Shown here piece after piece: positions 18,963-58,798 of a stretch of 60,173 bases of DNA. Each line of letters opens with the position of its first letter. Within the stretch, counting starts at the first letter, position 1. The translations under genes and the position numbers were made by a program. The notes beneath the pieces were generated by a model that saw nothing but the letters and a program-made list of their open reading frames with translations, was not told the DNA's origin and did not search any database. Origin of the DNA: Parvibaculum indicum (GTDB lineage Bacteria; Pseudomonadota; Alphaproteobacteria; Parvibaculales; Parvibaculaceae); NCBI RefSeq assembly GCF_011762095.1, contig NZ_JAASQO010000019.1, positions 1 through 60,173 on the forward strand. Reading direction: 5' to 3'.

Positions 18963-19000
18963 TCTCACCTCCCTCTATTTTCTGGACTTTCGCGCGCGGG

Positions 19001-44142: not shown

Positions 44143-45537
44143 ATGGCCTATCGCCATTCATTTGCCGGTCACCGATACGAGTTCGCCGATCTGAAAACGC
44201 TGCTGGCGAAGGCGAGCCCCGCGCGCGCCGGCGACCGGCTGGCGGGCCTCGCGGCGGAAACCGACGAGGAGCGCGTCGCCGCGCGCTTCGCGCTGGCGGA
44301 CCTGCCGCTCGACACCTTTCTCAATGAAGAACTTATCCCCTATGAAACGGATGAGGTGACGCGCCTCATCATGGACGGGCATGACGAAGACGCCTTCGCA
44401 CCCGTTCGCGGGCTGACGGTCGGCGGCTTCCGCGACTGGCTACTTTCCGATGCGGCGGACGAGGCGGCGCTGAAGGCGCTCGCGCCCGGGCTGACGCCGG
44501 AAATGGCCGCCGCCGTCTCCAAGCTCATGCGCAACCAGGATTTGATCGCCGTGGCGAGGAAATGCCGCGTGGTGACGGCGTTCCGCTCCACCATCGGGCT
44601 TGCCGGACGGCTCGCCATCCGCATCCAGCCCAACCACCCGACGGACGATCTGAAGGGCATCGCGGCCTCCACGCTGGACGGGCTCATGTATGGCTGCGGC
44701 GACGCGGTGATCGGCATCAACCCGGCAACGGACAGTCCGGAAGCGATGGCGCGGCTCCTCCATCTCGTCGACGACCTGCGGCAGCGCTACGACATCCCCA
44801 CGCAATCCTGCGTGCTGGCCCATGTGACGACGGCGATGGAGGTGATGAGGCGCGGCGCGCCGGTCGACATCGTCTTCCAGTCCGTCGCGGGCACGCAAAA
44901 GGCGAATGAAAGTTTCGGCATTAACCTCGCCATGCTGGCCGAAGCGCGCGAGATGGCGCTGGCGCTGAAGCGCGGCACGGTCGGCGACAATGTCATGTAT
45001 TTCGAAACGGGGCAGGGCGCGGCGCTCTCGGCGGATGCGCATGAAGGGCTCGACCAGCAGACGGTGGAAGCGCGCGCCTATGCGGTGGCGCGCGCCTTTT
45101 CGCCGCTGCTGACGAATACGGTGGTGGGCTTCATCGGCCCGGAATATCTCTTCGACGGCAAGGAGATCGCGCGGGCGGGGCTCGAGGATCATTTCTGCGG
45201 CAAGCTTCTCGGCGTGCCCATGGGCGTGGATGTCTGTTACACGAACCACGCCGAGGCCGATCAGGACGACATGGACAATCTGCTGACGCTGCTGGGCGTG
45301 GCGGGCTGCAATTTCGTCATGGGCGTGCCGGGCGCGGACGACATCATGCTGAGTTATCAGTCCACGTCGTATCACGACGCGCTTTACGTGCGCTCCGCGC
45401 TGGGCCTGAAGCCCGCGCCGGAATTCGAGGCATGGCTCAGGGCCATGAACATCATGGATGAGCGGGGTCAGGTGAGGCCGGAGCTCGCAGGCGGCGCGGG
45501 CGCGGCGCAGCTTCTCGAATACGGGGCGGCGGAATGA
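44143..45537 (+). CDS. eutB: Ethanolamine ammonia-lyase large subunit EutB
   Basis: 464 residues, full length for EutB. Conserved blocks: RLGRKIQPNHP-like (AIRIQPNHPTDDL), ASTLDGLMYGCGDAVIGINPATDS, THAQSCVLAHVTTAME-like, YFETGQGAALSADAHEG, VVGFIGPEYLFD and LLGVPMGVDVCYTNHAEADQDD. With EutC it cleaves ethanolamine to acetaldehyde and ammonia using adenosylcobalamin. No microcompartment shell, EutA reactivase, EutE or EutH genes are adjacent. The stop overlaps eutC by 4 nt. Confidence 0.96.
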   Translation: MAYRHSFAGHRYEFADLKTLLAKASPARAGDRLAGLAAETDEERVAARFALADLPLDTFLNEELIPYETDEVTRLIMDGHDEDAFAPVRGLTVGGFRDWLLSDAADEAALKALAPGLTPEMAAAVSKLMRNQDLIAVARKCRVVTAFRSTIGLAGRLAIRIQPNHPTDDLKGIAASTLDGLMYGCGDAVIGINPATDSPEAMARLLHLVDDLRQRYDIPTQSCVLAHVTTAMEVMRRGAPVDIVFQSVAGTQKANESFGINLAMLAEAREMALALKRGTVGDNVMYFETGQGAALSADAHEGLDQQTVEARAYAVARAFSPLLTNTVVGFIGPEYLFDGKEIARAGLEDHFCGKLLGVPMGVDVCYTNHAEADQDDMDNLLTLLGVAGCNFVMGVPGADDIMLSYQSTSYHDALYVRSALGLKPAPEFEAWLRAMNIMDERGQVRPELAGGAGAAQLLEYGAAE

Positions 45538-48553: not shown

Positions 48554-49366
48554 TCAATCCTGATAGTTCGCTGCGCGCTTTTCGAGGTTGGACATGATCG
48601 CCTCGACCTGGTTCGGGCTGCCGATGAGCTTGTCCTGCTCGACGGATTCCATGGTGAGGCCTTCCTCCTCGCTCACCACCGCCGCGGCGTTGAGGATGCG
48701 CTTGGAGGCGCGGATGGCGCTGGGGCTCTTGCCCGCGATTTCGCGCGCGGTCGCCAGCGCGTCTTCGCGCGGGGTCTCGGTGACGCGGGTGGCGAAGCCG
48801 ATGCGGCCCGCTTCCTCGCCGAGGAAGATGCGACCCGTATAGGTCAGCTCACGGACGATATCCTCGCGCACGAGGTGATACATGATCTGCGTGCCGGCCA
48901 TGTCCGGCACGAGGCCCCATTTGATTTCCATGATGGACATCTTCGTGTCCGGCGCGACATAGCGCATGTCGGCGCCCAGCATGAGCTGGAAGCCGCCGCC
49001 GAAGGCGACGCCGTGGACGGCGGCGATGACCGGCACTTCGAGTTCGCGCCACTGCCAGACGACATATTGCGCGCGGTTGGAGATGCCATGCGTGCGGGGC
49101 GTGAGACGGTTCGGCACGCCGCCCTTGTCTTCTTTCTTGTCGTCACCGGCCATCTTGCCGAAATTGCCCATGTCGAGCCCGGCGCAGAAGGCGCGCCCGT
49201 CGCCCGAGATCACCACGGCGCGCAGGCCCTTTTCGTTGCGCAGGCGCTCGCCCGTATCGAGCAGCGCCTCGAACATGGCGTCGTCCAGCGCGTTCATCTT
49301 GTCGGTGCGCACCAGGCGGACATCAGCCACGCCGTCCTCGATAGTGACGGTAATCCGTTCGCTCAT
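48554..49366 (-). CDS. Enoyl-CoA hydratase/isomerase (crotonase) family protein
   Basis: 270 residues. Crotonase fold: DKMNALDDAMFEALLD, oxyanion-hole segment SGDGRAFCAGLDMGNFG, a longer-than-usual loop (residues 68-92, KMAGDDKKEDKGGVPNRL), and AAVHGVAFGGGFQLMLGADMRYVAPD. The EIKWGLVPDMAGTQ segment carries Asp where some isomerases act, and the Glu pair of classical hydratases is not both present, so an isomerase or other crotonase reaction is likely. Probably acts with the downstream acyl-CoA ligase. Confidence 0.9.
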   Translation of the reverse strand: MSERITVTIEDGVADVRLVRTDKMNALDDAMFEALLDTGERLRNEKGLRAVVISGDGRAFCAGLDMGNFGKMAGDDKKEDKGGVPNRLTPRTHGISNRAQYVVWQWRELEVPVIAAVHGVAFGGGFQLMLGADMRYVAPDTKMSIMEIKWGLVPDMAGTQIMYHLVREDIVRELTYTGRIFLGEEAGRIGFATRVTETPREDALATAREIAGKSPSAIRASKRILNAAAVVSEEEGLTMESVEQDKLIGSPNQVEAIMSNLEKRAANYQD

Positions 49367-49555
49367 CTCTTATCCTCCCGAAATTCCGGATTTTCGATTT
49401 CGTTTTGCGGGAGAGTAACGCATTCGGCGGCGCTGTCCGACAGGAAAGAGGCCGATGACGCCGGGGAGGGCGCCGCGGCCGGCGTTGACAGGCGGCGACC
49501 TTGCGTCAAATCTGCTTGAAAACGAGATGCAAACGAAAACGGGGCGGGACGCGAG

Positions 49556-51379
49556 ATGGCCGAGCAGGGCGACAAGACGGGGATTTGCGGGGCGGCGACA
49601 TGCGATTGCCCCGACCACGACCACCATGCAGATGAGCTTTATGGCTGCCCCTGCTGCGCGCCCGTATTGCAGGACCTCGGCCTGATCTCGCTGCCGCCGC
49701 TGGCCAATGCCGCGCGGCCCGAAGCCTGGAAGAAGCTCGGTGCGCCGAAGGAGGCGCCCGCCGAGACGGTCGTCATGGCCAATGCGACGGTGGTGACGGC
49801 GGATGCGGGGTTTTCCATCGCCGAGGCGCTGGCCTTTCGCGACGGGCGCATCCTGGCGGTGGGCACGCTCGACGAGGTGAAGGAGGCGGCGGGCGAGGAC
49901 GCAGAGGTCGTGGACTGCGCGGGCCGCGCCATCCTGCCGGGCTTCATCGAGCCGCATATGCATTTCTTCCCCATCGCCATCATGAACCGGCTTACCGATG
50001 TGGGCCCGTTCAAATGCGACGATGCGGATGCCGTGATCGCGCGGATGGGCGATCTGGCGGCGGAGACGGAAGACGGCACGTGGATCGTTGCGCGGCAGTT
50101 CGACCCCTCGCTCCAGCCGGGCGCGGACCGCATCACGCGGCATACGCTGGACCAGGTCGCGCCGCGCAATCCGGTCTTCATCTTCAATGCGTCGCTGCAC
50201 ATCGCCTATTGCAACTCGGCGGCGCTGAAGATCGCGGGCGTAACGGCGGAGACGCCGGACCCGGCGGGCGCGGCCTATGGGCGCGATACGGACGGCCATC
50301 CCAATGGCGTGCTGCAGGGGCAGGCGACCATGTTCGGCGTGCTGGCGCATAACCTGTCCGCGCTGGCGCTGGACGATGTGCCCGCCGCCTGCAAGGCGGT
50401 CTGCGAAAAGGCCAATGCGGTCGGCATCACGACATTCTGCGATCAGGCGAGCGGCGGCTTTCAGGGACCGGGCGAGATCGACGCCTTCCATGCCTTCGCG
50501 GCCTCCGGCCATATGACGGCGCGGCTGCGCTATTCGCTCATCAATTCGAGTGCGAAGCGCTGGGACGAAAGCGACATCGCCTTCGGCAAAGGCGACGGGA
50601 TCGCCCGCGCGGTGGGCTGGAAGATCGTGTCGGACGGCTCCAATCAGGGCCGCACCGGTTTGCAGCGCGAGCCCTATTACGGGCGCGAGGACACCGGCAT
50701 CGCCTATGTGGACAAGGACAGCTTGCGCGAGACGGTGGTGCAGCGCGCGCTGGAAGGCTGGCAGGTGGTGGTGCATGCCAATGGCGACAGGGCCATCGAC
50801 CATGCGCTGGACGCCTTTCAGGCGGCCTATGACGCAGGCGCGCCGCGCGAGCGCCGCTTCCGCATCGAGCATTGCTCGATCCTGCATGACGAGCAGATCG
50901 AGCGGATCAAGGCGTTGGGTATTAGCCCGAGCTTCCTCATCGGCCATGTGCATTATTGGGGCAAGGCGTTCCGCGACGACATCTTCGGGCCGGAAAAGGC
51001 GAAGCTGCTGGGCCGGGCGGCGAGCTGCGGCAAGGCGGGCATTCCCTGGACCATGCATTCCGACGAGCCGGTGAGCGAAATGGGGCCGCTGCGTCTCATC
51101 GACAATGCGGTGAACCGGACCTTGTGGAAGGAGCCCGGCAGCGTGCTGAACCTCGAAGAACGGGTGAGCGTGGAAGAGGCCATTCTGGCGCTGACGCGGG
51201 ATGCCGCCTGGCAATGTCATTCCGACCACGAAATCGGCTCGCTGGAGCCCGGCAAATACGCCGATTTCGTGGTGCTGGACCGCAATCCGCTGGCCGTGGC
51301 GCCCGGGGAGGTTGGGGGAATCCAGGTTCTGGAAACATGGATGGACGGACGGCGCGTATTTGCCGCTTTATCTTCATAA
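49556..51379 (+). CDS. YtcJ-type amidohydrolase with Cys/His-rich N-terminus
   Basis: 607 residues. Amidohydrolase_3 core: GFIEPHMHFFP (HxH metal site), WKIVSDGSNQGRTGLQREPYY, VVVHANGDRAIDHALDAF, FRIEHCSILHDEQIERI, and TMHSDEPVSEMGP (metal Asp), with a C-terminal composite beta-sandwich (GSLEPGKYADFVVLDRNPLAV). The first 40 residues hold C11, C16, C18, H21, H23, H24, C31, C33 and C34, a possible extra metal site not usual in this family. The start ATG 49556 has only a weak ribosome site. Substrate unknown. Confidence 0.88.
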   Translation: MAEQGDKTGICGAATCDCPDHDHHADELYGCPCCAPVLQDLGLISLPPLANAARPEAWKKLGAPKEAPAETVVMANATVVTADAGFSIAEALAFRDGRILAVGTLDEVKEAAGEDAEVVDCAGRAILPGFIEPHMHFFPIAIMNRLTDVGPFKCDDADAVIARMGDLAAETEDGTWIVARQFDPSLQPGADRITRHTLDQVAPRNPVFIFNASLHIAYCNSAALKIAGVTAETPDPAGAAYGRDTDGHPNGVLQGQATMFGVLAHNLSALALDDVPAACKAVCEKANAVGITTFCDQASGGFQGPGEIDAFHAFAASGHMTARLRYSLINSSAKRWDESDIAFGKGDGIARAVGWKIVSDGSNQGRTGLQREPYYGREDTGIAYVDKDSLRETVVQRALEGWQVVVHANGDRAIDHALDAFQAAYDAGAPRERRFRIEHCSILHDEQIERIKALGISPSFLIGHVHYWGKAFRDDIFGPEKAKLLGRAASCGKAGIPWTMHSDEPVSEMGPLRLIDNAVNRTLWKEPGSVLNLEERVSVEEAILALTRDAAWQCHSDHEIGSLEPGKYADFVVLDRNPLAVAPGEVGGIQVLETWMDGRRVFAALSS

Positions 51380-51501
51380 GCGGTAAATAATTGCGTGAGT
51401 AAGCTAAAATGGCGGTTGCAAACCGTGACAAAAATGCACAACGCTATCCTTGTACGATTGCTAACGTCGGGTTTGGGGAAGAAACGAAGTCATCACTTCC
51501 A

Positions 51502-52488
51502 ATGTCAGACCACCACGACAAGATCGGCGCCGCATTGCGCGATGCGCGACAGGCCTGCGGACTCTCACTGGATGAGGTCGCGGAGCGCATCCATATTCGC
51601 CCCGTCTATCTTCAGGCGATAGAGGCGGGGCAGTTCGAGCTTCTTCCCGCCGTTCCCCAGCGCCTCGGCTTCACGCGCTGCTATGCCGACTTCCTGCAGA
51701 TCGATCTCGGCGACGATATCGACAAGCTGAGCGAGGAAGTGAACGACCATGTTTCGCAGACGGATTATTCAGCGCCCGCGCTTTTGCTGCCGGAGACGCG
51801 GCGCGGCTGGGGAATGTACGGCGTGGCGGCGGTGCTGATGGCGCTGGTCGCGGGAAGCGTCTTCTATTTCAGCGGAACGCAGTCCGGTGATGTCGCGGCC
51901 ACGAGCGCGCCGCAGACCAGCGTGCCGCCCGCAAAGGCGTCGCTGCCGGTGCTGGAGGACAAGGCCGAAAGCCCGGCGCCGCGCGCCGCCGAGCCCGCGC
52001 CCGCCGAGGAGCGGAACGAGACGCCCGCGGCGACCGACCTTGCCGCCGGGGACGAAGCCTCCGCGACCCCGTCCGAAACGCCGGTGGCGCAGGCCCCCGT
52101 CGCCGCCCCTGTGGTCGTGGCGGATGCCCGTGACGCGGAACCCGCGCTGCGAAACGACACCGCGCCCGCCGCCGACACGGACGAGGCGGCGCCCGCTGTC
52201 GAGATCGAGACGGCGAAGGCAAAACCCGTTGCCGCCGCTTCCCGCGAGACCGGAACCGGCGAGACGGAAAGCGCGGAGCTGACGCCGGCCTATCTGGCGT
52301 CGAGCGACGTATTCATTCGCGCCCGGCCGGATAATGGCGGGGCCGTGCTGGGCGTCGTCAATCGCTGCGAGCCCTTGCAGGTGCTGGGCGGCAACCGCTA
52401 TTGGCGCGAGGTCGAGCGGAAGGACGGCACCAAGGGCTGGGTCTTCACCGACTATGTGGCGCAGCGCGGACAGGCCGGCTGCGTCTGA
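51502..52488 (+). CDS. RodZ-like HTH membrane protein with C-terminal SH3 domain
   Basis: 328 residues from ATG 51502; an in-frame ATG at 51409 would add 31 residues of no resemblance. Order of parts: HTH_25 domain (IGAALRDARQACGLSLDEVAERIHIRPVYLQAIEAGQFELLPA ... FTRCYADFLQID), one membrane helix (about 104-122), a long Ala/Pro/Glu-rich periplasmic linker, and a bacterial SH3 domain (SSDVFIRARPDNGGAVLGVVNRCEPLQVLGGNRYWREVERKDGTKGWVFTDYV). RodZ links MreB to the wall, but RodZ proteins normally end in DUF4115; the SH3 end suggests a related anchor or regulator binding peptidoglycan. Confidence 0.85.
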   Translation: MSDHHDKIGAALRDARQACGLSLDEVAERIHIRPVYLQAIEAGQFELLPAVPQRLGFTRCYADFLQIDLGDDIDKLSEEVNDHVSQTDYSAPALLLPETRRGWGMYGVAAVLMALVAGSVFYFSGTQSGDVAATSAPQTSVPPAKASLPVLEDKAESPAPRAAEPAPAEERNETPAATDLAAGDEASATPSETPVAQAPVAAPVVVADARDAEPALRNDTAPAADTDEAAPAVEIETAKAKPVAAASRETGTGETESAELTPAYLASSDVFIRARPDNGGAVLGVVNRCEPLQVLGGNRYWREVERKDGTKGWVFTDYVAQRGQAGCV

Positions 52489-52659
52489 GCGGCTTGCCGC
52501 CGCCTTTCTCCCCCGCCTTTCCTCTCGATGAAAAGCCCGTAAGTTTCCGCCATGCCATGCGCCTTTCGGCCCGCCGGGACGAAGCGTCGCATTGTGCCGG
52601 GGCGCGGGGAGGCGTAGCGCCGTAACATCCGTGCCGGTCCGACAGGAGGAAATTGCGGA

Positions 52660-53334
52660 ATGGGGCTTTCATCCGCCGTTGCGCGCCATGCGAAGGGGTT
52701 TGCCGCGCGCCTGCTGGGCGTGTGTATCGCGATGCTCGCGGTGTCCGGCTGCGACGACGGGCAGGCTTGGCATGCCACCGATCTGTCGGGTGCGTTTCCG
52801 CCGCTGCATTTCGCCATGACCCGCGCCGATGACGGCAAGCAGGTGACGGAAGCGGATTATCGCGGCAAGGCGGTGCTGCTCTATTTCGGCTACACCTTCT
52901 GCCCCGATGTCTGCCCGACCACGCTCAGCCATATCAGCAATATTCTGGACCGCATGGGCAAGTCGGCGGACGATGTGCGCGTGCTCTTCGTGACCGTGGA
53001 TCCGAACCGCGACACGCTGCCGGACCTCAAGCGATATGCCGACGCCTTCGCGCCGCAGGTGGACGCGCTGCGCGGGACGCCCAACGAGCTTGCGGCGCTC
53101 GCCAAGCGCTATCGCGTTGCCTATACGGTGCGTCCGGCGAAGGATGACAGCGACTACGAAGTGTCGCACGGCTCCGCCGTCTATGTGTTCGACGGCGAGG
53201 GCCGGATCAGGCTGCTCTTTTCGTCGCTGTCGCGCGCGCAGCCGGATATGGACGGCATGACGACCGACCTTGAAAGACTGACGCGGGAAGATTCAGGCGG
53301 CGGCTGGCTGAGCCGCATCGCCGCCTGGTTCTAG
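52660..53334 (+). CDS. SCO1/SenC copper chaperone
   Basis: 224 residues, ATG 52660 after AGGAGG. Signal/lipobox region ends VSGC (Cys31), so likely a lipoprotein. Thioredoxin fold with the copper motif C81-P-D-V-C85 in YFGYTFCPDVCPTTL and the third ligand His170 in YEVSHGSAVYVFD. It delivers copper to the CuA centre of cytochrome oxidase. Convergent with a PCu(A)C gene 4 nt away, an association that supports a role in oxidase copper loading. Confidence 0.95.
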   Translation: MGLSSAVARHAKGFAARLLGVCIAMLAVSGCDDGQAWHATDLSGAFPPLHFAMTRADDGKQVTEADYRGKAVLLYFGYTFCPDVCPTTLSHISNILDRMGKSADDVRVLFVTVDPNRDTLPDLKRYADAFAPQVDALRGTPNELAALAKRYRVAYTVRPAKDDSDYEVSHGSAVYVFDGEGRIRLLFSSLSRAQPDMDGMTTDLERLTREDSGGGWLSRIAAWF

Positions 53335-53338
53335 GGTC

Positions 53339-53815
53339 TTATTTGCCGGTCGCGGTCGCGCCCTTGACGTCGAAGCTGCCGGTCAGCGTCGAGCCGTCCT
53401 TGAACTTCAGCGTGACCTCGGCAGTCGTGCCCGGCTTCAGCCCGGCGGCGGGCTTCATGCACATCAGGTGCTTGCCGCGGGGCGCGAAGCTGACGCTCTC
53501 GCCCGGCGCGACGGCGACTTCGGGGAGCATGACCATTTTGTCGCCCTTGCTCTCATGCAGCATGATGCTGCCGCAGGCGGGCGAGGATGCGCCGACAAGC
53601 GTGCGGGCTTCGCCGCTCTCATTGGTCAGCGTGAAATAACCGGCGGCGGGCCGGCTCGGCACGATGACCCGCATCCATGTGTCGGACAGGTTGAGGCCCG
53701 CCGCCTCGCCGGCAAACGCGGGCGCCGGTGCGAGCGCGCCCGTGCCGAGGGCCAGGGCGAGGCTACATGCCAGTCCAGCTTGCCGCATTGATGGCAGGAG
53801 ATGTTTCATCCTCAT
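53339..53815 (-). CDS. PCu(A)C-type periplasmic copper chaperone
   Basis: 158 residues: signal peptide ending APAFAGEA, then the DUF461/PCuAC cupredoxin-like fold with copper ligands H87 (MLHESKGD), M94/M96 and H116-x-M118 in GKHLMCMKP. The spacing resembles the H-M/H-x-M copper motif of the family. It works with SCO1 to insert Cu(I) into oxidase CuA or CuB. Its 5' end overlaps the upstream ctaG-like gene by 53 nt, indicating cotranscription. Confidence 0.93.
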   Translation of the reverse strand: MRMKHLLPSMRQAGLACSLALALGTGALAPAPAFAGEAAGLNLSDTWMRVIVPSRPAAGYFTLTNESGEARTLVGASSPACGSIMLHESKGDKMVMLPEVAVAPGESVSFAPRGKHLMCMKPAAGLKPGTTAEVTLKFKDGSTLTGSFDVKGATATGK

Positions 53816-54749
53816 TCTCGCTTTCTGCCTCTTCTTCGGCGAGGCGCATGAAATTCAGCACAAGCAATAACCCGACGGCGCTCATCATGGCACCCGGAAT
53901 CCACACGATGAGCCCGCCATAGGCCTGATCCGCCATGGCGTCGATCGAGGGATAGATGCGGCCGCACCAGTGATAGAACTCGTAGAGATCGCGGCTGGAA
54001 AAGGTGATGAAGGCCCCGATCAGGATTTGCGGGAACATCACCCCCATCAGAATGCCGCTTCGCGCCAGGAACCCCAGACGGGCGGGCGGCGAGGGGCGCG
54101 GATCGAAGATCAGGCTCCAGAACAGGATCCCGTCCACCACCATGGACCAGTTCATGAGGGAGTAGAGCCGGGGGTCGACCATGACCCGGAAATGAATGTC
54201 CGGGATCAGCCAGAGATAGATGAGCCCGACGAAGAGGAAGGCGGCGAGCGCCGGCTGCTGGACGACATGCATGACGCGCCTGAGCCAGTGCGCGCGGCAA
54301 AGCCGTGCGAGCGGCCCCGGCATGCCGCGCAGGATCGTCGCGCCCGGCCAGCCGAGCACGATCAGCATCGGCCCCAGATGGTGCATGACGATGTGCTGGA
54401 AGCGATTGAGGAAAAACATGTGCTGCGCGAGATAATCGTAGCGCGTCATCAGCACGGCGTAGGTAAGGGCAAGGCCCGCCACGAAACAGGCGATGCGCCA
54501 TTTCGCCGGGCGTTCCCCGGGCGAAGAGAGTTGCAGCCCCCGGACGAACCACCAGAGCGCAAGCCAGAAGGACACGAATTCGAGCGGGTAGAAATCCCAC
54601 GGCGCCCAGACGGGCAGCAGCGTGGGCACATTGCGGCAGAGCCACCATAAAGCGGCGCTCGCCGCGGCCAGCAGCAGATAGACCGCGCCGTCCATGAACG
54701 GAAGGGAGGCCCGGCGCGGCAGCGCCTTCTGGAGAGCGGTGGTCACCAT
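53763..54749 (-). CDS. CtaG_caa3-type cytochrome oxidase assembly protein
   Basis: 328 residues from ATG 54749 (AAGGA 5 nt upstream); longer frames back to 54896 cross the terminator and lack ribosome sites. Polytopic membrane protein of the caa3-type CtaG family with about seven helices and conserved His/Asp/Arg residues: FLNRFQHIVMHHLGPMLIVLGWP, LWLIPDIHFRVMVDPRLYSLMNWSMVVDGILFW, and YHWCGRIYPSIDAMADQAYGGLIVWIPG. It takes part in copper insertion into haem-copper oxidases, consistent with adjacent PCuAC and SCO1. Confidence 0.92.
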   Translation of the reverse strand: MVTTALQKALPRRASLPFMDGAVYLLLAAASAALWWLCRNVPTLLPVWAPWDFYPLEFVSFWLALWWFVRGLQLSSPGERPAKWRIACFVAGLALTYAVLMTRYDYLAQHMFFLNRFQHIVMHHLGPMLIVLGWPGATILRGMPGPLARLCRAHWLRRVMHVVQQPALAAFLFVGLIYLWLIPDIHFRVMVDPRLYSLMNWSMVVDGILFWSLIFDPRPSPPARLGFLARSGILMGVMFPQILIGAFITFSSRDLYEFYHWCGRIYPSIDAMADQAYGGLIVWIPGAMMSAVGLLLVLNFMRLAEEEAESENEDETSPAINAASWTGM

Positions 54750-54855
54750 TCGCATCCTTGAAGCATACCCCAAGGGTGCTAGTCCCTGCCGCCCGAAATG
54801 CCAAGTGGGCGCGCCCGCGTCCGGTCGTCGCAATGGCCGCGAAAGGCATTCGGAC

Positions 54856-54985
54856 AAAAGAAGAGGGAGCCCTTTCGGGCTCCCTTGAGATGCCACTGGC
54901 TGCGAGAGGGAGGTGAGGGGGGGACACCGGGATCGCGCAGTGGAGCAACTGAAGCGGTTTGCCTACGTGGTACCGCCGTCGTTGT
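54856..54985 (-). ncRNA. Candidate FNR-controlled small RNA with anti-Shine-Dalgarno loop
   Basis: Reading the minus strand from about 54985: hairpin 1 has stem GCGGT/ACCGC (54976-54954); hairpin 2 has stem CCACTG/CAGTGG (54943-54893), whose loop holds a C/U-rich run complementary to ribosome sites (CCTCACCTCCCTCTC, 54918-54904); then an intrinsic terminator at 54884-54865 with a T-rich tail. Upstream are a CATTAT -10 (54998-54993) and an FNR-type box centred near 55026.5, 41.5 nt before the inferred start. No ORF fits. Predicted length is 120-130 nt. Expression is not shown; all parts are inferred from sequence. Confidence 0.55.
54858..54884 (-). terminator. Rho-independent terminator of the candidate small RNA
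   Basis: Perfect 8-bp stem GGGAGCCC-GAAA-GGGCTCCC on the minus strand (54884-54865) followed by TCTTCTTTT. It lies upstream of, not downstream of, the ctaG-like gene, and no protein gene to its right is read in this direction, so it must end another transcript. Confidence 0.75.
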
Positions 54986-54992
54986 GAAGATC

Positions 54993-55033
54993 ATAATGAC
55001 AGGTATACGTGCCGGGGCCTTGATCTGGATCAT
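54993..55033 (-). promoter_or_regulatory. FNR/Anr-type box with -10 element
   Basis: TTGATCTGGATCAT at 55020-55033 matches TTGAT-N4-ATCAA in 9 of 10 positions. On the minus strand a CATTAT -10 lies at 54998-54993, placing the box centre at about -41.5, the class II activator position. On the plus strand no -10 is found at the right distance, so the promoter points to the small RNA and, beyond its terminator, to ctaG. Confidence 0.6.
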
Positions 55034-55233
55034 TTATGGTGATTTAGCCCGCCAGGGCCGGATTTCCGCCCGGTTCGCGGTCAGGGGGGAGTTGACGAAA
55101 GCGGACCCTTGCGCATAAGTTCCGGGCCTCGCGACGCGGGATTCCCGCGCTTTGCGCACCAAGTGCCGATCACGGCGCCATTTGCGGTATTTTTACTGTA
55201 TCCGGGCATAAAAGCCCGGCCGGCTCAGGCTCT
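55034..55233. other. Non-coding gap before tRNA-Gln
   Basis: About 200 bases without a gene. A GCCCGG...CCGGGC-type hairpin (GCCCGGCCGG near 55214) lies just upstream of the tRNA; the tRNA promoter should be here (TTTTTACTGTATCC near 55190), but no clear -35/-10 pair is assigned. Confidence 0.4.
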
Positions 55234-55307
55234 TGGGGGATCGTCTAATGGTAGGACAGCGGACTCTGACTCCGCCAGTCTAGGTTCGAATCCTAGTCCC
55301 CCAGCCA
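55234..55307 (+). tRNA. trnQ: tRNA-Gln (anticodon CTG)
   Basis: Full cloverleaf: acceptor TGGGGGA/TCCCCCA, D arm with GGTAGGACA, anticodon stem GCGGA/TCCGC with loop CTCTGAC giving anticodon CTG (reads CAG), T arm with GGTTCGAATCC, discriminator G and encoded CCA at 55305-55307. The tyrosine integrase gene begins 57 nt after it, so the 3' end is the likely attachment site. Confidence 0.97.
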
Positions 55308-55364
55308 ACTTCTCATAAGACATTGAAATCGTGGGAGTTTTCGCCCAGCAGAAGGTCATCTTCT

Positions 55365-57083
55365 ATGGGGTCACCCACAACTCGCCCACATGCCACCCAC
55401 ATCAGCCGCAAGAAGGGCATGTACTACTACCGGCGGCGAATCCCTTGCTCCACTAGGGAGGTCAGCCTATCCCTGCGGACCGATGATTTTTGGGTTGCCG
55501 GTCGGCGGGCTCGCGCTCTCGGCAGCCTCTTCGATTTTGTATTGAGTTCACGCCCCCTCATGATCCCCGAGCTACAAGACATTCTCAGGCGGTACCTTCA
55601 GCGCCTCGTGGACGAAGACCTCCAGCGCCACCTCGCCACTCCACCTGGAGAACCCCTCTACGCTGGCTTTGTGCCCGCGAGCGAAGAGGATGCCGTCGAT
55701 GCGGACATGGAAGTTCTTTCTCACATTCGCTCCGACCTCAGAGAGGCGCTCGCACACAGGAAATATGAGAGGTTTGGGGACGAGATCGATGCCCTGATGA
55801 AGGAGAATGATCTCCCTGCTTCTTCCCGCCCTGCGTTGGGCATGGGGGTCCTTCAAGCCCAGCTGCAGCTCGTGAAACTTCAAGAAGAGCGGCGGATGCA
55901 GCCGGTGCCCGAGATCGTCCTTGAGCCTTCACTAGTGGTCGAGAGCGTTTCTCAGAAGGCTCCAGAGCCCGAAGGACCATTGCTGCAGGAGGTGCTGCCC
56001 AAGTTCTTCAAGCAGATGCGGCAGTCAGAGGAGTGGACAGAGCACACGCTGGGTCAGAACAGGCAGACATACGAGATGTTCGTGCAACTCAACGGCAACC
56101 TGCCCGTCACGGCCTACACCAAGAAGGATCACTTCACCCCCTTCTACGACATGCTGACAGCGTTGCCGTCCCTGTGGTCGAAGGCCCGAGAATGGCGCGA
56201 CATGACGCCGATGGAGATCGTCGAGCACACGGCTGAAGATGATGCAGTGCCACGGCTGGCAATGAAGACCGTAAAGCGTCACTTCAGCGCCTTGGGGCGC
56301 CTGTTCACCTATCTGATCAAGCGTGGCCTGTATGAGGGAGAGAACCCCGCTCACGGCTTTGAGTTTCCCTCCAAGGGACGCGCAAAGTCGCGGAGGCATA
56401 TGTGGGAGGGCGATACGCTGACAGCTCTGTTTCGGTCGCCGGTCTGGACTGGGATGATGTCCGAAAGTCGGCGTACAGAACCTGGAGAAGTCATCGTGCG
56501 CGATGAGAAGTTCTGGTTGCCGATCTTGGCCCTGTACCATGGCAACCGCCTTGAGGAGTTCGCTCAGCTCGTGGCGGGCGATGTTCGGGAGGAAGATGGC
56601 ATTCCGTTTTTCGACGTGAACGATGACGGCGACAAGCAGCTCAAGAACGAGCAGTCCAGGCGGCGCATCCCGATTCATCCTGAAGTGGTGCGCATCGGCT
56701 TCCTTGAGTACGTGAAAGCGAATGCACCCAACTCAGAAGACCGCGTGTTCCCGAACCTCAAGCCCGGCGGCCCCGACAAGCGTCTGGGGTACACATTCAC
56801 GAAATGGTGGTCGCGGTATCGACGGCAGATCGGTCTCTATGAGGTGGGGTTGGACTACCACTCGTTTCGGCACGGGGTGACCACGAAGCTGTTTGACGCA
56901 GGCGCTAGCGCGGCCATCGTCGATGAGATCACGGGGCATGAAGGGCAGGGGACGAGCAGCAAAGTGTACCACAAGGGCAGCGGCCTAAATGCTCTTAGGG
57001 ATGCCATTCAGAAGATCGAATGGCCGGAGGTCGACTTCTCGCACCTATACGTCAGCACCGACGGTGTGGTTGCAATTCGCTAA
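55365..57083 (+). CDS. Tyrosine site-specific integrase (DUF6538 N-terminus)
   Basis: 572 residues from ATG 55365 (GAAGG upstream). N-terminal DUF6538-like segment (MYYYRRRIPCSTREVSLSLRTDDFWVAGRRARAL), a long central linker, SAM-like core-binding domain (about 220-330) and catalytic domain with Arg395 (HGNRLEEFAQL), a Lys in KNEQSRRRIPIHP, His499-x-x-Arg502 (HSFRHG), His525 (TGHEGQG) and Tyr535 (SSKVYHKG). All five-to-six catalytic residues are present. Placement beside tRNA-Gln indicates that it inserts the island there. Confidence 0.93.
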   Translation: MGSPTTRPHATHISRKKGMYYYRRRIPCSTREVSLSLRTDDFWVAGRRARALGSLFDFVLSSRPLMIPELQDILRRYLQRLVDEDLQRHLATPPGEPLYAGFVPASEEDAVDADMEVLSHIRSDLREALAHRKYERFGDEIDALMKENDLPASSRPALGMGVLQAQLQLVKLQEERRMQPVPEIVLEPSLVVESVSQKAPEPEGPLLQEVLPKFFKQMRQSEEWTEHTLGQNRQTYEMFVQLNGNLPVTAYTKKDHFTPFYDMLTALPSLWSKAREWRDMTPMEIVEHTAEDDAVPRLAMKTVKRHFSALGRLFTYLIKRGLYEGENPAHGFEFPSKGRAKSRRHMWEGDTLTALFRSPVWTGMMSESRRTEPGEVIVRDEKFWLPILALYHGNRLEEFAQLVAGDVREEDGIPFFDVNDDGDKQLKNEQSRRRIPIHPEVVRIGFLEYVKANAPNSEDRVFPNLKPGGPDKRLGYTFTKWWSRYRRQIGLYEVGLDYHSFRHGVTTKLFDAGASAAIVDEITGHEGQGTSSKVYHKGSGLNALRDAIQKIEWPEVDFSHLYVSTDGVVAIR

Positions 57084-57168
57084 CGATTTGCCCCTAGAGA
57101 CTGCCCCGCAGCAGCTCTCGCTCGCTGCACCCACCTCATAACCAAGAAACTCGAATCTCGGAGAACTC

Positions 57169-57582
57169 ATGAAGCACATTTGCGCCTTCTTGTCCCTTTT
57201 CGTTGCCGTCTCGGTAACTGGCTGCGTGAGCCACGAAAACTCGACATCCGGTCGCGCCAAGACCTCGATGATCGGCATGTCCAGAGAACAAGTTCTTCAG
57301 TGCGCTGGTGTCCCTCAAGGCACGATGAAAGTCGGCGACACAGAAGTCTGGAAGTATGCGGGAGAGGGTGGCGTGTCGGCTCATCTCGGATCAAACGGTA
57401 ACATTGATGGCGAGACCGCCCTGTGCCAAGTCGCAGTTCTGTTCCAAGGGGACGAAGCAAAGGATGTCCGCTTTTCGAGCAATAACACAGGCTTGCTCAA
57501 GGGGCGCAGCATGTTAAATGCGATCATGGGTGAACAATACCCTGTATGCGCACGTATAATAGCTCCGTGTACCGCTCAATAA
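57169..57582 (+). CDS. SmpA/OmlA-like lipoprotein in island
   Basis: 137 residues. Signal peptide with lipobox VTGC (Cys19), then MIGMSREQVLQCAGVPQGTMKVGDTEVWKYAGEG, which has the start of the BamE/SmpA-OmlA fold (MSREQV...GVP...VWKY). Three further Cys. ATG 57169 follows CGGAGAAC. Small lipoproteins of this pattern are common in islands; function not known. Confidence 0.75.
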   Translation: MKHICAFLSLFVAVSVTGCVSHENSTSGRAKTSMIGMSREQVLQCAGVPQGTMKVGDTEVWKYAGEGGVSAHLGSNGNIDGETALCQVAVLFQGDEAKDVRFSSNNTGLLKGRSMLNAIMGEQYPVCARIIAPCTAQ

Positions 57583-57622
57583 ATCGTCGTGATAGCATGA
57601 GGAAGAGGAGGCGCTAGATCGT

Positions 57623-57958
57623 GTGAGGCGGTTCAGCTTTAATGTGACCGGCGCTTTCTCTACTGCAATGAAAAAGGATTACAAGAAGGGCAAGGTCAGT
57701 GCTGAGAAGGCCCGTGAACGCATTCACGACGCCGCTGGCGGCATTAACCTCGCAACATGGGTGCTGGTGATGGGTGAGAAAGACCCGGTCGTAGAGGCCC
57801 TGGAGCGGTACAAGGTGCCCGTGACCCGGAGCAACTGGATCAAGTTCAGTTACCCGGATGGCCCTCCGAAACCGTGGACGGCGGAGCATGAGGCGGAGCT
57901 TCCAGAGGAACTCCAGCTCAAATCCAAGGAAGATGGCAGCATCTTCAACGAGATGTGA
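57623..57958 (+). CDS. Hypothetical protein in island
   Basis: 111 residues from GTG 57623; an in-frame ATG (MKKDYKKGKV) at 57668 is an alternative. The protein is basic in its first half (MKKDYKKGKVSAEKARERIHDAAGG) and acidic at the end (EHEAELPEELQLKSKEDGS). No family recognised. It sits between the lipoprotein and the serine recombinase, on the same strand. Confidence 0.5.
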   Translation: MRRFSFNVTGAFSTAMKKDYKKGKVSAEKARERIHDAAGGINLATWVLVMGEKDPVVEALERYKVPVTRSNWIKFSYPDGPPKPWTAEHEAELPEELQLKSKEDGSIFNEM

Positions 57959-58069
57959 CCAAAAGGGGGGCTTCGGCCCGGCGAGGTCCCTATCTTTTTC
58001 AAAGAACATATTCTGGGTGTGCAATAAAACTTGCGAGCCTGCCTCTTTCGGGCATGGAGGAGGGCTCGG

Positions 58070-58798
58070 ATGGGTGTTACATTTCAGACAACGACCGTCG
58101 TCAGTAATGAGATAAACACCGTGAAGAAGCCGTACCTGGGCTATGCCCGCGTCTCCACCGACAAGCAGGGCCGCAGTGGCCTCAGCCTCGAAGCCCAAGA
58201 GGGCGCGATCCAGGACTATGTGAGCCGCCAGGGAGGGAAGCTCCTTCAGCCCATCTACGTCGAGGTGGAGAGCGGCAAAAACACGGCACGACCGGAACTC
58301 ACCTCGGCCCTTGAACGTGCCCACCTCCTGGGGGCTACCATCGTCGTCGCCAAGCTGGATCGCCTGAGCCGCGATGCCTCCTTCCTGATGGAATTGGTGA
58401 AGTCGGGTGTGGATGTCGTCTTCTGCGACATGCCCGAGTTGCCCGAAGGCCCCATGGGCAGCTTCATGCTCCGCCTCATGGGCTCTATCGCAGAACTGGA
58501 GGTCGGCCTCATCAGCCAGAGGACCAAGGTTGCCCTGGAGGCCGCGAGAGCCCGTGGCGTGACTCTGGGGGGCTACCGTGGTGGACCAAAGGTTGATCCG
58601 AAGCTCGGGCTCAAGGCGCGTCAGGAGAAGGCACAGGCGTTCAGGGAGCGTGTGCTAACGGTCATCGACGACCTCGATCCCGATGGCACCATGTCGGCCA
58701 ATCAGATTGCCAAGGAGCTATCCGCGCTGGGCGTTAGGACGCCGAGGGGAAAGACACAGTGGACGGCGGCACAGGTGATCCGGCTGGGTAAGGACTAA
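58070..58798 (+). CDS. Serine recombinase/resolvase
   Basis: 242 residues from ATG 58070, preceded by GGAGGAGGG at 5 nt. Resolvase catalytic domain with nucleophile Ser29 in YLGYARVSTDKQG, the arginine cluster in AKLDRLSRD, and GSFMLRLMGSIAELEVGLISQRT (E-helix region). A C-terminal HTH-like segment (MSANQIAKELSALGVRTPRGKTQWTAAQVIRLG) binds DNA. Too short for a large integrase, it is of the DNA-invertase/resolvase size class. It may resolve or invert DNA in the island. Confidence 0.93.
   Translation: MGVTFQTTTVVSNEINTVKKPYLGYARVSTDKQGRSGLSLEAQEGAIQDYVSRQGGKLLQPIYVEVESGKNTARPELTSALERAHLLGATIVVAKLDRLSRDASFLMELVKSGVDVVFCDMPELPEGPMGSFMLRLMGSIAELEVGLISQRTKVALEAARARGVTLGGYRGGPKVDPKLGLKARQEKAQAFRERVLTVIDDLDPDGTMSANQIAKELSALGVRTPRGKTQWTAAQVIRLGKD

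Follow-up and report, generated by a model that had tools for sequence, protein, structure and literature searches.

What does the DNA between tRNA-Gln and the oxidase-assembly gene ctaG of Parvibaculum indicum encode: a small RNA gene of its own, a regulatory leader of ctaG, or no gene at all? The window, that is, the whole stretch of 60,173 nucleotides analysed here, lies on one contig (C19) of a 4.02 Mb genome. Read on the minus strand, the elements follow in the order tRNA-Gln, FNR/FixK-type box, -10, RNA, terminator, ctaG and PCuAC (Table 1). The best explanation, which we hold to be probable, is a stand-alone small RNA gene of about 130 nt under an activator of the FNR/FixK type. Its independence is supported by a two-genome conservation footprint together with the absence of a strong competing antiterminator.

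Table 1. Features of the predicted small RNA locus, its neighbours and a candidate target, in window positions
Feature	Position	Strand	Remarks
tRNA-Gln	55234-55307	+	
FNR/FixK-type box	55020-55033	-	9/10 consensus positions
-10-like hexamer CATTAT	54998-54993	-	21 nt after box; conserved
Predicted small RNA, ~130 nt	54856-54985	-	Start inferred from promoter geometry; fold; conservation
Hairpin 1	54946-54984	-	Predicted fold
Hairpin 2	54893-54943	-	Carries the C-rich anti-SD segment; predicted fold; 15/15 pairs unchanged in CPC32
Anti-SD segment CUCACCUCCCUCU	54905-54917	-	Within hairpin 2
Intrinsic terminator	54864-54885	-	9-pair stem, tail CTTCTTTTGT; equivalent in CPC32
CtaG gene, caa3-type	53763-54749	-	PF09678, E 1.8e-48; downstream of RNA
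PCuAC gene	53339-53815	-	Pfam-confirmed
SCO1 gene	52660-53334	+	Pfam-confirmed; beyond PCuAC
Candidate target site AGAGGGAGGTGAG	18964-18976	-	Just before cytochrome P450 ATG; 13-nt perfect complement of 54905-54917
Cytochrome P450 gene	17544-18962	-	PF00067, E 2.1e-75

The surroundings are as a preliminary description of the sequence had them. Pfam confirms the oxidase-assembly neighbours ctaG, PCuAC and SCO1. From 55233 to the end of the window the codon model finds three genes, all on the plus strand, as is the tRNA, so the terminator has no upstream minus-strand gene to serve.

The RNA from 54985 to 54856 has a minimum free energy of -51.3 kcal/mol (z -4.24, none of 200 shuffles as low). 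The only other bearer that we found is the metagenome-assembled genome of Parvibaculum sp. CPC32 (G015), whose RNA reaches -51.1 kcal/mol (z -4.33). The predicted fold contains the two hairpins and the terminator originally described. Both genomes share it, with 72 of 72 paired cells kept. Three one-sided changes fall in helices 1 and 2 and keep the pairing in each case; two-sided covariation is absent (0 pairs), since only two genomes can be compared. With Rfam, no convincing family appears at the gathering threshold or at E up to 10, which bears out the earlier remark that the sequence falls outside recognised families. At E≤10 the matches are ctRNA_p42d (16.0 bits) and STnc320 (14.5 bits), both well under the gathering score of 50, and the CPC32 RNA has four comparably weak matches, FnrS not among them.

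A small protein was considered and rejected, because 1-nt indels between the two genomes break the frames and the long minus-strand frame begins within the box. The CPC32 indels inside the RNA body (1, 3 and 1 nt) argue against the conservation of any reading frame.

In an alignment, the 8-kb locus of CPC32 is about 90% identical to window positions 49014-51981 and 52234-55307, and the match ends beyond tRNA-Gln. As a yardstick we used the fourfold sites of ctaG, a single gene, where 28 of 173 differ. The RNA body (54864-54977) is identical at 111 of 114 positions, the CPC32 insertions excluded, and three or fewer changes in 114 have a binomial P of 3.6e-6 by this yardstick. The box (14/14) and its 5' flank at 55034-55049 (16/16) show no change in 30 positions (P 0.005), and CATTATG is kept at 7/7 within diverged DNA. 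The spacer from box to -10 is identical at just 12 of 21 positions; its nine changes (P 0.003) are faster than the yardstick. Identity is 10/14 between the -10 and the RNA body, and 11/14 in a short alignable piece just past the terminator, amid large insertions. The flanks, too, change more slowly than the yardstick, with 173/184 identical from the tRNA to the box (P 2.4e-5) and 86/92 in the ctaG leader (P 0.005). Taken by itself, the conserved RNA body is thus indecisive, as it stands out only moderately from slow intergenic DNA. The pattern as a whole, conserved islands split by diverged spacers, is the footprint that a promoter and an RNA gene would be expected to leave.

The box reads TTGATCTGGATCAT on the plus strand and ATGATCCAGATCAA on the minus strand, with one mismatch to the consensus TTGAT-N4-ATCAA. 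It is present where the first description had placed it. That description also had a -10 at the class II distance; the spacing of 21 nt stands, but the conserved hexamer is CATTAT rather than TATGAT, because the latter (54995-54990) reads TATGGA in CPC32. By this promoter geometry the box centre lies about 40.5-41.5 nt ahead of the predicted start at 54985-54986.

By itself the box tells little, since 68 sites match with at most one mismatch in the 4.02 Mb genome (about 1 per 59 kb, 2 perfect) and 37 of the 50 inspected lie inside codon-model genes. Those 37 are probably chance matches. The other 13 fall outside genes according to that codon model, whose training set was the window, and 2 of the 13 sit in loci where it found few or no genes. 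The reversed pattern, at the same stringency, has 8 sites genome-wide. We then scanned for the full arrangement: a box, a -10-like hexamer 20-24 nt on (at least 4/6, including A2 and T6) and an 8-pair terminator-like stem within about 260 nt. A single instance is present in the window, at 55020 on the minus strand, against none in 150 dinucleotide shuffles; box and -10 without the terminator occur 0.08 times per shuffled window. The window holds two one-mismatch boxes, and the second (44707-44720, GTGATCGGCATCAA) is not followed at class II distance by any -10-like hexamer.

The distribution of the RNA is narrow. It is present in 2 of 27 genomes of the genus and in 2 of 40 of the order, a sample in which 27 reach 90% completeness with no more than 5% contamination. 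Conservation in relatives, proposed at the outset as a check, thus holds for one other genome, CPC32, among the 40 of the order. BLAST over 61 genomes, the source included, returns its own copy, CPC32 and one terminator-only match (G030). A third genome of the order (G004, E <0.001) was rejected as a bearer, as it matches through the terminator only.

A covariance model run over the 27 genus genomes reported 23 places at E≤1, and two of these are the true copies. Nineteen of the remaining 21 were inspected and proved to be either terminators or coding DNA matched by chance; one of them lies 149 nt downstream of a two-mismatch box. The last two cover model positions 108-131 alone, which is the terminator. 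A 25-position core pattern finds one contig, that of CPC32, in a collection of 84,980 species from which records near the source genome are possibly omitted. Plasmid and phage searches for the RNA returned nothing, nor did one pattern run over viral contigs.

The tRNA-Gln region is matched in 24 of the 27 genus genomes. A regular expression for the box, run over 30 tRNA-Gln loci with the anti-SD scanned on one strand, hits the source genome and CPC32 only. This ctaG is also found in 2 of the 27. Among 385 genomes of the class, 12 have a ctaG match, the source included; of the other 11, five show 45-55% identity, one of these being a partial match, and six match more weakly. No box was found near other ctaG genes in the 12 loci of the class that were scanned.

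These data bear on whether the element belongs to ctaG. It could be an oxygen-responsive 5' leader in which the box drives ctaG-PCuAC and the hairpins and terminator form a leaky attenuator. The two lie on the same strand, the ctaG ATG coming 114 nt after the terminator stem, and among the 27 genus genomes RNA and ctaG are confined to the same two. That co-presence in related genomes may reflect one event, and we do not count it as evidence for a link. We also looked for an antiterminator. With the 3' arm of the terminator blocked, the best fold loses about 19 kcal/mol in the window and about 17 in CPC32, with no strong competitor; the 5' arm is touched by a short local hairpin (window) or by three pairs (CPC32). 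Antitermination may yet depend on a protein. Large between-species indels part the terminator from the conserved ctaG leader, as they would between two separate units. On this evidence we consider a ctaG leader unlikely.

A real small RNA gene with a box present by chance, the RNA being constitutive or otherwise controlled, seems to us somewhat more doubtful still. The genomic frequency of such boxes, their presence in genes and a ccoN without one speak for it. Against it stand the full conservation of this box beside a diverged spacer, its class II spacing, and a sigma-70 scan of 53500-56500 that finds no promoter-like site. Most improbable is that chance hairpins lie in conserved intergenic DNA between tRNA-Gln and ctaG and that there is no gene. 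The entire intergenic region is indeed conserved between the two genomes, yet fold z values of -4.2 and -4.3, the patchy footprint and the full arrangement in 0/150 shuffles are hard to reconcile with this.

If the small RNA gene is real, which protein would switch it on? Six Crp-family proteins of this genome pass the Pfam cut-off. For one of them, L071 (contig C6, about 40.7 kb), the nearest match is the Caulobacter FixK (163.7 bits, for a cut-off of 300), followed by FnrL (135.6 bits); it has no N-terminal cysteine cluster. Another, L074 (contig C9, about 35 kb), scores best with FnrL (83.9 bits, below cut-off) and carries a CxxC close to its N terminus. The original proposal of an FNR-activated small RNA keeps its FNR/FixK-type promoter, seen in the two-genome footprint, but the best-scoring activator candidate is FixK/FnrL-like. 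Control by FixK/FnrL is plausible, control by FNR itself a hypothesis. An excerpt on Caulobacter lists ccoN among the FixK-activated genes (PMC3751524). The ccoN present here has no box with up to two mismatches in 1.5 kb upstream, so box-driven low-oxygen control cannot simply be assumed; the CPC32 ccoN fragment has one two-mismatch box about 0.9 kb upstream.

As for function, what we infer of transcription, oxygen control, activator identity, anti-SD action and targets can be set out as a model. Under falling oxygen, an activator of the Crp/FNR family, either FixK/FnrL-like or FNR itself, would bind 55020-55033 and, from about position -41, bring RNA polymerase to CATTAT, the conserved -10. 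The polymerase would transcribe leftward as far as 54864-54856. In the resulting RNA, the C-rich part of hairpin 2 would pair with ribosome-binding sites and repress translation of selected mRNAs, the P450 mRNA being the best target candidate found in the window.

The segment was initially described as an exposed anti-Shine-Dalgarno loop, which is true of part of it. UCCCUC (54906-54911, internal loop) and UCCCCCCCU (54916-54924, terminal loop) are free, while CACC (54912-54915) is paired, with a probability of 0.01 of being unpaired, so the segment is half sequestered. The CPC32 RNA has the same paired and free pattern and a longer loop. The RNA shares eight letters, UCACCUCC, with the 16S tail; when this C-rich sequence is shuffled, 273 of 5000 versions (5.5%) attain an identity of that length.

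Among 44 gene starts of the window, picked by the codon model and an SD rule, the top partner is the P450 gene, with a 13-nt run. The neighbours rank lower: SCO1 9, PCuAC 28 and ctaG 38. Across these window starts, target prediction with the segment yields a P450 partner, and the adjacent ctaG and PCuAC are poor ones. The P450 duplex has -25.2 kcal/mol, to be set against opening costs of 6.5 and 3.0. A 13-nt run is reached by 11 of 2000 shuffles of the full RNA and by 9 of 2000 that keep CCUCC, and these counts make such a run likely to occur by chance somewhere in a whole genome. As a lead found post hoc, the P450 target is suggestive. Cytochrome P450s are oxygen-dependent enzymes.

The pattern GGGAGGTG-N2-9-ATG occurs at 21 places in the source genome and 14 in CPC32, and 30 of the 35 were inspected. 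By eye, murF-like, ftsW-like and small membrane protein genes have it in both genomes; these shared starts may be just strong ribosome sites. Of the 14 in CPC32, none looks like a P450 by its first 80 residues, and 3 open no 50-codon frame.

Comparison with known regulators relies on excerpts of the papers cited. The E. coli fnrS promoter has an FNR site centred at -41.5 (PMC3032703). The 21 nt from box to -10 fit that geometry, with the start here a predicted one. FnrS and the anaerobic FnrS-like RNA of Neisseria gonorrhoeae share with our locus an FNR-type box, here at a predicted class II position, a short intergenic RNA and an intrinsic terminator (PMC3032703, same excerpt). Unlike FnrS, our RNA has no Rfam match, its activator candidate is FixK/FnrL-like and its oxygen response is predicted. 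In the excerpts on Rhodobacter sphaeroides, RSs0019 and RSs2461 are FnrL-bound small RNAs and PcrZ is a low-oxygen small RNA, probably under direct PrrA control and perhaps only indirect FnrL control (PMC4263372, PMC8139620). These too are small RNAs of Alphaproteobacteria with a link to FnrL or to low oxygen, a likeness of description.

The alphaR8 family, as excerpted, includes SisA-D of Caulobacter and MmgR of Sinorhizobium, and SisA represses targets through an anti-SD core (PMC12559287). That core, UUUCCUCCCU, agrees by eye at 8 of 10 letters with UCACCUCCCU here, and an intrinsic terminator is common to both. The alphaR8 core is single-stranded after a weak hairpin, whereas here it lies inside the strong hairpin 2 with CACC paired, and the usual alphaR8 neighbour is an N-formylglutamate amidohydrolase gene in place of tRNA-Gln and ctaG. 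Cuckoo/CcsR-type RNAs also bear an anti-SD motif on a hairpin (excerpts of PMC3927594, PMC10253847). Their hairpins number three or four, all with loops resembling CCUCCUCCC, whereas we see one C-rich hairpin with the loop UCCCCCCCU; CcsR-like RNAs are often paired with a DUF1127 gene, unlike ours, whose scanned neighbours include none. Among the titles and beginnings of abstracts listed, with few subscription journals, none deals with a Parvibaculum small RNA or with an alphaproteobacterial FNR/FixK-driven anti-SD RNA of this kind.

A credible reading from sequence is that the RNA would add a member to a known type of regulator, one with FnrS-like logic. If it is expressed as predicted, that logic (oxygen regulator, small RNA, ribosome-site block) can re-arise within one genus, and oxygen status would have a specific link to a P450 monooxygenase in Parvibaculum. 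The range of known regulator kinds would stay unchanged. The full scenario is speculative and, in our estimate, improbable: an FNR/FixK-switched anti-SD RNA, arisen in one Parvibaculum lineage, would shut off oxygen-dependent enzymes when oxygen is scarce. It would be an independently evolved counterpart of FnrS, acting through a 16S-tail-like segment and, on P450, by a 13-nt block of the ribosome site.

Two further observations concern other DNA. One of the two perfect TTGAT-N4-ATCAA boxes of the genome (L084, 1450-1620) lies between a large membrane-protein gene and a Crp-family gene, and by eye the membrane protein is a probable quinol-dependent NO reductase. Past tRNA-Gln, a phage-integrase-family gene (55323-57083, its frame also with DUF6538) and a resolvase-domain gene (58031-58798) make 55234-58798 on the plus strand look like the end of an integrated island. 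The frame that CPC32 has at this tRNA is a different one, whose DUF6538 match falls just under the cut-off (24.7 vs 27 bits).
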